Shown here: positions 1-5,360 of the stretch, one piece after another
Position numbering within the stretch: position 1 is the stretch's first letter
How the letters are laid out: every line of letters begins with the position of its first letter
Origin: Streptomyces drozdowiczii
Lineage (GTDB): Bacteria > Actinomycetota > Actinomycetes > Streptomycetales > Streptomycetaceae
Length of the DNA stretch: 64,000 nt
Direction of reading: 5' to 3'
Assembly: GCF_026167665.1 (NCBI RefSeq)
Contig: NZ_CP098740.1
Location: 2,728,001-2,792,000, forward strand
The notes under the pieces: model-generated
What the model saw: only the letters and a program-made list of their open reading frames with translations
The model's database searches: none
Told to the model about the DNA's origin: nothing
Program-made: the position numbers and the translations under genes

Positions 1-917
1 GCGGACGAGACGAACCGGTCCTCGTCGCGCAGGAGTCCGGCGACCTTGGTCATCCACCGGGCGATGGGGCGGTCCGGGGCGGCGAAGAGGTGCTCGTACC
101 AGCCGGGGGACTCGATGCCCGCGCCGTATCCGCTGTGCCGGGCGAGCCGGCGGTGGGTCCAGGGCACCCAGGTCAGTTCGGCCTTGGCCTTGGGCAGGCC
201 CTTGAGCAGGGCCCGGTCGGCGGTGAGCGTCGTCCGGGTGAGGAGGGCGGGGACGTGCCAGGCACCGCAGACCACGGCGAAGTCGTCGCTGAACTCCTTC
301 TTCGCCGTCCGGATCCGGATGCGCATGTACGCCTCGCGCACCGCGTCCCTGGGATGCCCGCCGTCCCCGTACGCCTCGCGGAGCGCGGTCATCGCCTCGC
401 CGAGCGCGGCGAACGCGGCGAGCGGTCCGGCCGCCTCGCCGCTGCCGGGGACGCGGTGCTCGACCACGTCCTCCCACCAGCGCTCGGGGTCGTCGTACCC
501 GGCGGTCTCGGCGAGCACGCGGATCGGGTCGACGGGGACGGGCCGTGCGTCGGGCTCCTCCTGGGAGGCGTCGTCGGCCTCCATCGCCAGCGAGTGCGCG
601 GCGGGCAGGTCGATGAAGCGGACGGGCACGTCCCGGGCCAGGGCCCAGCGGATCGCGACCCACTCGGGGGAGAACTCGGCGAACGGCCAGAACGCGGCCC
701 GGCCGGGGTCGTCCACCGCGTGGGCGAGCAGGGCGACCGGAGGCCGCATCTCCTCGTCGGCGGCGAGCGGCAGCAGCGCGTCGCCCTCGGGCGGGCCCTC
801 GATGAGGACCGCGCGCGGGTTCGCCGTGTCGAGGGCGGCGCGGACGGCGCGGGCCGAGCCGGGGCCGTGGTGCCGCACCCCCAGCAGCAGCGGCCCCGCT
901 CCACGGGTCTCGGTCAT
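1..917 (-). CDS. DUF5682 family protein, C-terminal part cut by window edge
   Basis: About 305 codons are visible and the frame is open to base 1, so the C-terminus lies outside the window. The start ATG overlaps the stop of the upstream MoxR ATPase gene in an ATGA junction, which implies coupled translation. The N-terminus carries a GVRHHGPGSARAV segment followed by LIEGPPEGDALL, both features I associate with DUF5682. No activity is established for this family. Relatives usually sit beside MoxR ATPases and vWA proteins, so a vWA gene is expected just beyond base 1. Function is inferred only from this context: a partner of the ATPase in a damage-responsive cassette. Confidence 0.8.
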   Translation of the reverse strand, partial: MTETRGAGPLLLGVRHHGPGSARAVRAALDTANPRAVLIEGPPEGDALLPLAADEEMRPPVALLAHAVDDPGRAAFWPFAEFSPEWVAIRWALARDVPVRFIDLPAAHSLAMEADDASQEEPDARPVPVDPIRVLAETAGYDDPERWWEDVVEHRVPGSGEAAGPLAAFAALGEAMTALREAYGDGGHPRDAVREAYMRIRIRTAKKEFSDDFAVVCGAWHVPALLTRTTLTADRALLKGLPKAKAELTWVPWTHRRLARHSGYGAGIESPGWYEHLFAAPDRPIARWMTKVAGLLRDEDRFVSS

Positions 918-2026
918 GCGGACGCCTCCCGGCAGGCGCGGTAGAAGTCCTTCCAGCCGTCCCGCTCGCGCACCACGGTCTCCAGGTACTCCTGCCAGAT
1001 GACCCGGTCCGCCGCCGGGTCGCGGACGACGGCGCCGAGGATGCCGGCCGCGACGTCGCCGGGGCGGAGCACGCCGTCCCCGAAGTGGGCGGCGAGCGCG
1101 AGGCCGTTGGTGACGACGGAGATGGCCTCGGCCGTGGAGAGCGTCCCCGAGGGGGACTTGAGCTTGGTGCGGCCGTCGGTGGTGACGCCGTCGCGCAGTT
1201 CGCGGAAGACCGTGACGACGCGGCGGATCTCGGCGAGGCCGTCGGGCGCGGGCGGCAGGTCCAGCGAGCGGCCGACCTGGTCGACGCGGCGGGAGACGAT
1301 CTCGACCTCCGCCTCCGGGGTCGCGGGCAGCGGCAGCACCACGGTGTTGAACCGGCGGCGCAGCGCGCTGGACAGCTCGTTGACGCCCCGGTCGCGGTCG
1401 TTGGCGGTCGCGATGACGTTGAACCCGCGCACCGCCTGGACCTCCTGGCCCAGCTCGGGCAGGGGCAGGGTCTTCTCGGAGAGGATCGTGATCAGCGAGT
1501 CCTGCACATCGGCGGGGATGCGGGTCAGTTCCTCGATGCGGGCGGTCATGCCCTGGGCCATGGCGCGCATCAGCGGGCTGGGCACGAGCGCGTCGCGGCT
1601 GGGGCCGTTGGCGAGCAGCTGCGCGTAGTTCCACCCGTAGCGGACGGCCTCCTCCGGGGTACCCGCGGTGCCCTGGACGAGCAGAGTCGAGTCCCCGCTG
1701 ACGGCGGCGGCCAGATGCTCGGACACCCAGGTCTTCGCGGTGCCGGGGACGCCGAGGAGCAGCAGCGCGCGGTCGGTGGCGAGCGTGGTGACGGCGACCT
1801 CGACGAGGCGGCGCGGGCCCACGTACTTGGGTGTGATGACGGTGCCGTCGGGCAGGGTGCCGCCGAGCAGATACGTCGCGACGGCCCAGGGCGACAGGCG
1901 CCAACGCTCGGGCCTGGGGCGGTCGTCGGCCGCCGCGAGCGCCTTCAGCTCGTCGGCGAAGGCGTCCTCGGCATGCGGGCGCAGGGCCTCGGCTGAGCTC
2001 GTCTGGGTAGTTGCGGACACGGTCAT
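914..2026 (-). CDS. MoxR-type AAA+ ATPase
   Basis: This 370-residue protein has a Walker A loop GVPGTAKT near residue 93 and a sensor-1 stretch IATANDRD near residue 207. An RRRF arginine motif follows near residue 225. That matches MoxR-family AAA+ ATPases, which remodel partner proteins, usually with vWA proteins. The start ATG has a strong Shine-Dalgarno sequence (GGAGGGGG) a few bases upstream. It heads a leftward operon with the overlapping DUF5682 gene and is divergent from the SWIM gene. Its promoter region shares a 12-bp inverted repeat with the rightward damage-type promoter, although its own -10 is a weaker match. The ATPase call is firm; the process it serves is not known. Confidence 0.9.
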   Translation of the reverse strand: MTVSATTQTSSAEALRPHAEDAFADELKALAAADDRPRPERWRLSPWAVATYLLGGTLPDGTVITPKYVGPRRLVEVAVTTLATDRALLLLGVPGTAKTWVSEHLAAAVSGDSTLLVQGTAGTPEEAVRYGWNYAQLLANGPSRDALVPSPLMRAMAQGMTARIEELTRIPADVQDSLITILSEKTLPLPELGQEVQAVRGFNVIATANDRDRGVNELSSALRRRFNTVVLPLPATPEAEVEIVSRRVDQVGRSLDLPPAPDGLAEIRRVVTVFRELRDGVTTDGRTKLKSPSGTLSTAEAISVVTNGLALAAHFGDGVLRPGDVAAGILGAVVRDPAADRVIWQEYLETVVRERDGWKDFYRACREASA

Positions 2027-2076
2027 GGATCCCCCTCCGGATCGGTCGCCAGGTCGGTCGGCCGGATGTGGTTCCC

Positions 2077-2099
2077 ACCGTGCACCATGGCACTGACAA
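2077..2099 (-). promoter_or_regulatory. weak PafBC-type (RecA-independent) promoter for the MoxR operon
   Basis: On the minus strand TTGTCAGTG (2099-2091) is followed after 8 bases by CACGGT (2082-2077). The known motif is TGTCRGTG-N8-TAnnnT; the upstream element is perfect, but the -10 has C instead of the first T. It is the mirror half of the inverted repeat at 2091-2133. The predicted transcript would have a leader of about 45 bases with a good ribosome binding site. Confidence 0.5.
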
Positions 2100-2133
2100 T
2101 CGGCCTTTGCGCAGGTCAGGGCGATTGTCAGTG
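2091..2133. promoter_or_regulatory. 12-bp inverted repeat between divergent MoxR and SWIM genes
   Basis: CACTGACAATCG (2091-2102) and CGATTGTCAGTG (2122-2133) are perfect inverted copies separated by 19 bases. Each arm contains the TTGTCAGTG upstream element of the RecA-independent DNA-damage promoter, one facing each operon. One regulator could therefore drive both directions. Confidence 0.75.
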
Positions 2134-2147
2134 GGGCCGCCTAACGT
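2125..2147 (+). promoter_or_regulatory. PafBC-type DNA-damage promoter for the SWIM gene
   Basis: TTGTCAGTGG at 2125-2134 is followed, eight bases after TGTCAGTG, by TAACGT at 2142-2147. This is an exact fit to TGTCRGTG-N8-TAnnnT, the RecA-independent damage-response promoter described in mycobacteria and Streptomyces and later tied to PafBC. The predicted start of transcription is about 2154, next to the ATG at 2155. Confidence 0.75.
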
Positions 2148-3710: not shown

Positions 3711-5360
3711 ATGTCCCGTACGACCACACCAGCCGCCACCCCGAAAGCCGCCGCGCCTGCGGCGTCCGTGCCGTGGGAGGAGCTGGTCACCTCGGCCCTG
3801 CTCGGCACGGACCGGCGGCCGCCCGAGGACCTGTCCGGCGCAGGCCCGGACGGCACCGCCGCCGCGCTGCTGGACGCCGCCGCGCTGCACACCGTGCGGC
3901 GGCGGGCGGGGCTGCTGCCCGCCGCCGCGTCCCCGCGCCCCGCCGTGGCGCCCGACGACCCCCGGCCGCCCCTGCCGGAAGCGGCCCGCGGCCGGCTGGC
4001 CCAGCTCCTGGCGGACCGGGCCGCCGGCTCCGGCGGCAGGCGGGGCACGGCCCCGGACCTGACGGAGCTGATCCCGCAGTGGCTGGCCGCGGCCAACCTG
4101 CACGGCTACCGGGCACCGGACTCCGCACTGCCCGCGCTGCTGGACGCGGCCCGGGCCCGCACCGATCTGCGCCCGCAGACCCTGGAGTTCGCCGGGCCGC
4201 GCGGCCTGTGGCTGGCCGGGCTGAATCCGGAGTGGAAGTTCGCGCTGCGCGGCGCGTCCGGCAGCGCACTGCTGCCCTCGCCGGACGACGCGGAGGCGGT
4301 GCGACGGCTCTGGGAGGAGGGCCTGTTCGCGGAGCGGATCGCGCTGCTCGGGACCGTACGGGCGCATGACGCGGAGGCGGCCCGCGCGCTGCTTGCCACC
4401 ACATGGAAGACGGAACGGGCCGAGGACCGGCTGATGTTCGTGGACTCGCTGCGCACCGGGCTGTCCGCCGACGACGAGGAGTTCCTTGAGCAGGCGCTCG
4501 CGGACCGGAGCCGCAATGTCCGGGCGACGGCGGCCGAGTTGCTGTCCGCGCTGCCCGGCTCGGCGCTGGCCCGGCGGATGGCGGACCGGGCGCTGTCCTG
4601 CGTGAGCCCGGGGCTCACCGGCGACGAGCCGTTCGTCGCGGTGGAGGCGCCGCACGAGTGCGACGAGGCGATGCAGCGCGACGGGGTGGCGCCGCTCCCG
4701 CCGTCCGGCCGGGGCGAAAGGTCCTGGTGGCTCGGCCAGTTGGTGGAGGCGGCCCCGCTCTCCGTCTGGCCGGCGCGGTTCGGCGGGCGAGGCGCGGCGG
4801 AGATCGTGGGCCTGCCCGTGGCGGACGGCTGGGGCGAGGAGCTGCACGCGGCCTGGTGCCGGGCTGCCGTGCGGCAGCGCGATGCCGGGTGGGCGCGGGC
4901 GCTGCTGGGACCGCCGTCGACGCCCCCGTCGAACGCCCCCGGTACGGCGTCGCTCGCCGAGCGGGCGAAGCTCCTGGCGGTGCTGCCCCCGGCGGAACGG
5001 GCCGTCTGGGTGGCGGATTTCGTCGCCGCGCACGGTTTGTCGGAGGCGTTCCAGCTGCTGGGGGTCTGCCCGGTCCCGTGGGCGCCGCCGCTCGGCCGGG
5101 CCGTTGTCGACGCGCTCGACATCGCGCGGGACGCGGGCAGCTACCCGTGGAGCTTCAGCGGCGTCATGGGCCTGGCCGAACGCTGTCTCGACCCGGCCGA
5201 GGCGGCCCGCCTGGAGGTCCTGACCACCACCCCCGCCGAACCGGCGGACGCCTCCCCCGGCGCGAACGGCTACTGGACGGAGGCGTTCCAACGCCTGGTC
5301 TCGACGCTCCGCCTACGCGCGACGATGGACAGCGAGCTGTCCGGGTCCCCGATGGGGTGA
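3711..5360 (+). CDS. DUF5691 family protein
   Basis: A 549-residue protein starting with ATG behind a strong AGGAGGGG ribosome binding site. It is rich in Ala, Leu and Arg and looks mostly helical. The central part (roughly residues 190-290) reads like HEAT-type helical repeats (SRNVRATAAELLSALPGS). No catalytic motif or signal peptide is visible. Proteins of this family typically follow SWIM-finger genes and accompany MoxR/DUF5682 genes, as here. A scaffold role in that complex is only an inference. Confidence 0.8.
   Translation: MSRTTTPAATPKAAAPAASVPWEELVTSALLGTDRRPPEDLSGAGPDGTAAALLDAAALHTVRRRAGLLPAAASPRPAVAPDDPRPPLPEAARGRLAQLLADRAAGSGGRRGTAPDLTELIPQWLAAANLHGYRAPDSALPALLDAARARTDLRPQTLEFAGPRGLWLAGLNPEWKFALRGASGSALLPSPDDAEAVRRLWEEGLFAERIALLGTVRAHDAEAARALLATTWKTERAEDRLMFVDSLRTGLSADDEEFLEQALADRSRNVRATAAELLSALPGSALARRMADRALSCVSPGLTGDEPFVAVEAPHECDEAMQRDGVAPLPPSGRGERSWWLGQLVEAAPLSVWPARFGGRGAAEIVGLPVADGWGEELHAAWCRAAVRQRDAGWARALLGPPSTPPSNAPGTASLAERAKLLAVLPPAERAVWVADFVAAHGLSEAFQLLGVCPVPWAPPLGRAVVDALDIARDAGSYPWSFSGVMGLAERCLDPAEAARLEVLTTTPAEPADASPGANGYWTEAFQRLVSTLRLRATMDSELSGSPMG

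Follow-up and report, generated by a model that had tools for sequence, protein, structure and literature searches.

What are the two mirror-image boxes that lie between a leftward MoxR-type ATPase gene and a rightward SWIM gene in this Streptomyces chromosome? The gap between these genes, near the start of the 64-kb window (the whole stretch of DNA analysed), harbours two mirror-oriented copies of TGTCAGTG, and a preliminary description had proposed a divergent DNA-damage promoter of the PafBC type within a 12-bp inverted repeat. We consider it probable that the region contains two separate, outward-facing promoters of the PafBC (RecA-NDp) type, here designated P1 and P2, that co-induce both halves of a gene cassette on DNA damage. 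The relevant features are:

1..918, minus strand, start of the DUF5682 gene (783 amino acids, continuing beyond the window); YehM of E. coli is in the same Pfam family
914..2026, minus strand, MoxR-type AAA+ ATPase gene (AAA_5); product with 39% identity to E. coli YehL in the aligned part
2031..2038, minus strand, likely MoxR ribosome-binding site GGAGGGGG, judged from sequence
2077..2082, minus strand, -10 hexamer CACGGT of P2, with a TG directly before it (TGGTGCACGGT)
2091..2098, minus strand, damage box TGTCAGTG of P2, facing MoxR-DUF5682-VWA
2111..2118, plus strand, third conserved element GC[AT]GGT[CG][AG], between the boxes and 7 nt 5' of P1, recognised by eye as a pattern
2126..2133, plus strand, damage box TGTCAGTG of P1 (the -26 type element of PafBC promoters), facing SWIM-DUF5691
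2142..2147, plus strand, -10 hexamer TAACGT of P1
2155..3681, plus strand, SWIM zinc-finger protein gene
3711..5360, plus strand, DUF5691 protein gene

The leftward operon comprises the genes for MoxR (ATG at 2026, preceded by the GGAGGGGG ribosome-binding site), DUF5682 and VWA_CoxE, followed by sucC, with VWA_CoxE and sucC lying outside the window; the rightward operon is SWIM-DUF5691. A MoxR/DUF5682 operon one way and a SWIM/DUF5691 operon the other had been described, and this gene content was borne out with VWA_CoxE added on the leftward side. Between the operons, CACTGACAATCG (2091-2102) and CGATTGTCAGTG (2122-2133) form the perfect 12-bp inverted repeat, which the repeat finder extends to 16-nt arms, 94% complementary, with a gap of 11 nt; both the repeat and its extent with the -10 hexamers (2077-2147) had been given correctly. 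Mirror-image boxes 10-40 bp apart occur at two places in the genome, this locus and C1:2248966-2249004 (L031, L152).

P1 has the TGTCRGTG box, the 8-nt spacer and the TAnnnT hexamer of a PafBC (RecA-NDp) promoter at 2126-2147, exact as previously stated; it is the only match in the window, and 100 shuffles gave none. P2 reads TGTCAGTG-N8-CACGGT on the minus strand, from 2098 down to 2077. On its own the 8-mer is frequent (8 occurrences in the window against 4.0 expected), so the evidence lies in the whole motif together with its position and conservation. The -10 of P1 ends only 7 nt before the SWIM ATG (2155), a point absent from the preliminary description, so a message from P1 would be leaderless; on these distances the transcription start is predicted at or adjoining the ATG, and the message is probably without a leader.

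The motif TGTCRGTG-N8-TAnnnT, whose form we adopted from the preliminary description and take to be that of a PafBC (RecA-NDp) promoter, has 43 matches in the genome (7,386,614 bases); the reversed control pattern has none. Downstream proteins, chosen by script, were scanned for 35 of the 43 sites, the other eight being the SWIM gene itself and seven more, six of which had wrong or doubtful-looking predicted frames. Thirteen of the 35 are of repair or replication types: RecA, UvrB, ExoIII (XthA), a UvrD/AddA-like helicase, DnaX-like, DnaN-like, O6-methylguanine-DNA methyltransferase, dGTPase, a RecB-like PD-(D/E)XK nuclease, RarA-like, UDG, HhH-GPD and AlkZ-like; 22 have no recognised repair function. 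Downstream of genes resembling pafA, prc and dop (Pup-proteasome locus neighbours, recognised by eye), the genome also contains an adjacent pair of WYL genes, the second with an HTH_PafC domain; PafB and PafC are both encoded, and the motif is common to DNA-repair genes of the same genome. Exact promoters of the P1 type also lie 6 nt before the start of a gene whose product has the C-terminal domain of Shedu SduA, an anti-phage nuclease family (L019, C1:3678882), and 6 nt before the starts of two TPR-repeat protein genes near a chromosome end (L001 and L002; C1:79522 and C1:82542).

The genome-wide counts bear on the possibility that the boxes are conserved for some other reason, as housekeeping promoters of the same shape, and that the cassette is not damage-inducible. 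Such a view can point to several of the 43 sites preceding genes without a known repair role; it has to account for 43 matches against none in the control, recA, uvrB, xthA, ung-type and ogt-type genes among them, and for the UV inducibility of a Streptomyces gene that has a RecA-NDp promoter, S. coelicolor SCO6735, as described in the part of the report available (PMC5087735). We think this view very unlikely. The same portion of that report cites RecA-NDp work on S. rimosus recA, and RecA-NDp promoters in Streptomyces have already been described, which qualifies the earlier statement that no description of the arrangement was known; that statement holds for membership of the cassette in the regulon and for paired divergent PafBC promoters, on which no paper was found in a search of titles and the openings of abstracts, with subscription papers mostly outside its reach.

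Conservation was examined in two sets of Streptomyces loci. A search of 61 genomes with the SWIM protein found it in 46, i.e. 34 of 37 from the same genus and 12 of the same order outside the genus. P1 is exact in all 34 same-genus loci (own included) and P2 in 33, with one mismatch in L065; the P1 -10 is 7 nt from the start codon in 33 loci and 6 nt in one. The second set was obtained via MoxR: the best 80 loci were taken out of at least 577, and without the two from Catenulispora this leaves 78 loci of named Streptomyces. Here P1 is exact in 77/78 (one mismatch in L180) and P2 in 78/78, and for the 77 loci the distance from the P1 -10 to the start codon is 7 nt in 74 and 6 nt in two, with no value for one. 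The sets share at least three species, and their 112 loci represent 109 distinct spacers, three spacers each occurring in two loci. Searching for the repeat before orthologous genes had been proposed as a check, a motif that was not conserved there counting against the proposal; since both boxes are conserved before the orthologues, that outcome did not arise.

The distance between the boxes is far from constant, ranging from 27 to 722 bp across the 112 loci. Both P1 and P2 are retained in 11 loci (L034, L035, L044, L045, L058, L059 plus five named ones) where the boxes are over 500 bp apart. This range of arm distances argues for two promoters rather than one palindrome, and a single palindrome or stem-loop was rejected on that basis; the idea of divergent promoters stood, and that of a promoter inside the inverted repeat as a single element did not. 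The perfect 12-bp arms, with their 16-nt extension, would suit a single element, either a palindromic operator bound by a dimeric regulator or a stem-loop acting as terminator or attenuator, but a fixed arm distance is not what is seen, each arm holds its own -10 at a fixed distance, and in other families a P1-type box stands alone before SWIM, and we give an explanation by one element hardly any credence.

P2 raises a question of its own. It has the box and the 8-nt spacer of the strict PafBC motif and CACGGT in place of TAnnnT, so we treat it as a PafBC-like promoter of a CAnnnT variant and not as a strict member. Several points count against reading the region as two PafBC-type promoters, two of them in the -10 region of P2: the hexamer does not begin with T, and the TG stands immediately before it, where a classic extended -10 has TGn. 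The P2 hexamer is CAnnnT in 112/112 loci and never TAnnnT, which indicates a conserved class and not a decayed copy. The perfect leftward box and CACGGT were as first described; calling that -10 'weaker' was too narrow for a member of this class.

Similar sites recur genome-wide, and on this and the fixed hexamer a degraded copy was rejected: 79 sites have a -10 that begins with C, A or G compared with 5 for the control, and 65 rows (62 sites) compared with 0 when a start codon 4-9 nt downstream is required. Among TGTCAGTG sites with a start codon at that distance, TG occurs in the last four spacer bases of 14/20 non-T sites and 1/22 TAnnnT sites (Fisher p = 1e-5); a TG close to the hexamer may compensate for the missing first T. 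From the 79 non-T sites, 20 were hand-picked among those with TGTCAGTG and fetched, and ten downstream proteins were scanned; four of the ten, behind CAnnnT/GAnnnT sites, are a DNA ligase, an Lhr-type helicase, PolI and a PolA-family protein. TGTCAGTG-N8-(C/G)AnnnT with TG before the -10 forms a genome-wide class (e.g. L149, L150, L151, L155, L159 and L164) that lies close upstream of likely leaderless starts, those of the four proteins just named and of a NADAR protein and a pentapeptide-repeat protein.

The invariance of CAnnnT could also mean that only P1 is a PafBC promoter, with P2 a relic or the site of another regulator sharing the TGTCAGTG box, TGTCAGTGGCGnGGTG-CAnnnT then being a second promoter class; the consensus of its own that the class has around the -10 fits this. 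A relic, however, would not persist in 78/78 loci, and a different regulator would have to share with the TAnnnT class the box, its distance to the -10 A and T, the 6-7 nt to start codons and the repair genes downstream. We regard this account of P2 as unlikely and retain P2 as the second of two damage promoters.

Outside the genus the cassette takes another form. A class-wide search with DUF5691 gave 38 of 197 genomes; 22 of the 38 are from outside the genus, and gene order was examined in 24 loci (20 of these 22 plus four same-order loci). In 24/24 the detected genes are co-directional, in the order SWIM-DUF5691-MoxR-DUF5682-VWA (in L136 VWA falls off the contig). A P1-like box with at most one mismatch precedes SWIM in 12/12 same-order loci outside the genus (exact in five), and a start codon, sought within 5-9 nt, follows at 6 or 7 nt. 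In other families (13 loci with an aligned N-terminus) TGTCRGTG-N8-YAnnnT was present with at most one mismatch in eight, compared with a rate of 0.0028 in shuffles made as first-order Markov resamplings; in seven of the eight a start codon lies 6-8 nt downstream, a combination seen in 0 of 3900 resampled sequences. Five of the 13 have at least two mismatches (three or four in L135, L140 and L146), and in L147 no match closer than three mismatches was found. In the Catenulispora group, ten same-order loci carry TGTCAGTGGCGTGGTGCACAAT or a close relative downstream of SWIM, with the box exact in eight and one mismatch in two; this element is nearly the Streptomyces P2 sequence, and in two long loci the P2-like element sits between SWIM and DUF5691.

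From this distribution we infer, direction of change included, that an ancestral operon carrying two damage promoters broke into two halves, with one promoter staying on each. At the head of that operon, SWIM-DUF5691-MoxR-DUF5682-VWA, there would have been a P1-type box, and a box of the P2 type would have lain inside it, as seen in the Catenulispora group; in Streptomyces the orientation of the MoxR half would have been reversed and a damage box kept by each half, so that, as we propose, the five gene products stay co-induced. Single-stranded DNA activates PafBC, which acts by sigma adaptation at the -26 motif, PafB contacting the motif and PafC region 4 of SigA with RNA polymerase already at the promoter, according to the accessible portion of PMC11804915. 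P1 and P2 both have their box at the -26 position. We expect both halves to be induced together on damage. In the proposed mechanism, DNA damage would generate single-stranded DNA that activates PafBC, which would enable the housekeeping RNA polymerase to initiate simultaneously at the two boxes; P1 would then yield a (probably leaderless) SWIM-DUF5691 message, and the MoxR-DUF5682-VWA message from P2 would have an ordinary leader. The sequence-level predictions of the preliminary description for P1 and P2 are supported, and the arrangement suggests that the cassette may serve the RecA-independent DNA-damage response. Residues 262-451 of the SWIM protein, beside the SWIM finger, have a predicted fold like OB-fold/HIN-type nucleic-acid-binding domains, with a middling Z; as a lead only, the model points to OB folds in tandem alongside the zinc finger, an architecture that would fit DNA binding.

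The two promoters may not be independent. Of the 112 loci, 93 have box spacings of at most 80 bp, and 91 of these fall at 27-29, 38-41, 50-51, 60-63 or 73 bp (the exceptions being 34 and 36), i.e. in classes near 28, 39, 51, 62 and 73 bp that were named after the data had been seen. No clear phase is visible in the eight loci spaced at 86-186 bp, and the remaining 11 lie beyond 500 bp. When each sequence cluster contributed a single value, p was 0.004, 0.018 and 0.0007 at the three loosest cut-offs (0.62, 0.66 and 0.70), and the two tightest gave 0 of 3000. Length changes inferred on the MoxR tree favour a period of 11.4 bp (reached by 0 of 5000 uniform draws), and 10.5 bp fits poorly (0.33 versus 0.63). 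On a tree of MoxR, SWIM and DUF5691 the spacing class changed 31 times, and 19 of 20 changes ending at 73 bp or less landed on the classes. Helical phasing is only suggested by these data, as the preferred period is 11.4 bp rather than 10.5 bp and larger spacings lack phase.

In 86/112 loci the third element lies 7-8 nt behind just one box, which may be either of the two; no locus has it behind both, and in seven more it is 18-20 nt away (chance 0.004 per side). We know of no regulator that fits it. It was not seen as a shared position-specific upstream signal at 63 genome sites (43 TAnnnT, 20 others), and is thus particular to the P1/P2 locus; a general upstream element was rejected on this comparison. 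A speculative extension, resting on the spacing classes and the third element, which are not the basis of the main reading, is that two PafBC-RNA polymerase complexes and a factor at the third element assemble on one DNA face, with spacing fixed in helical turns (approximately 28, 39, 51, 62 and 73 bp) and damage firing both operons as one cooperative switch; we hold this to be doubtful.

For S. venezuelae, an initial search suggested no conservation of the PafBC motif known from M. smegmatis, and the part of that paper available leaves open a RecA/LexA-independent damage response in Streptomyces (PMC9380542). Contrary to that search, the present genome argues that the motif exists in Streptomyces. 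If correct, our reading bears on this printed question, which the 43 TAnnnT sites and the CAnnnT/GAnnnT class make directly testable; it would place in a physiological setting a MoxR/VWA/SWIM/DUF5682 machine that is widespread but uncharacterised and is found in E. coli as yehLMPQ, and the paired promoter would offer a natural test of cooperation between sigma-adaptation complexes.

Among known systems, the closest in gene content is yehL-yehM-yehP-yehQ of E. coli K-12, annotated as uncharacterised in function, which like this cassette has MoxR ATPase, DUF5682, VWA_CoxE and SWIM proteins in one gene run; the gene order differs, and DUF5691 was not among the four proteins scanned. The MoxR and VWA pair also recalls the MoxR-VWA ternary systems (Pfam bpMoxR), although the bpMoxR match of the cassette MoxR is weak (score 21.8, below the cut-off of 27). 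PADLOC anti-phage defence models gave a weak IetA match for the ATPase (E 0.0078) and none for the remaining four proteins. In M. smegmatis, a pafBC deletion is reported, in the text available, to lower MoxR1 and MoxR2 (PMC5656591), any relation of these to the cassette MoxR being putative. In regulation, the locus resembles the RecA-NDp/PafBC promoters of mycobacteria, S. rimosus recA and SCO6735 in the TGTCRGTG-N8-TAnnnT form of P1 and in the class of target genes; it differs from them in having two such elements in mirror orientation over one intergenic region, with CAnnnT at P2.
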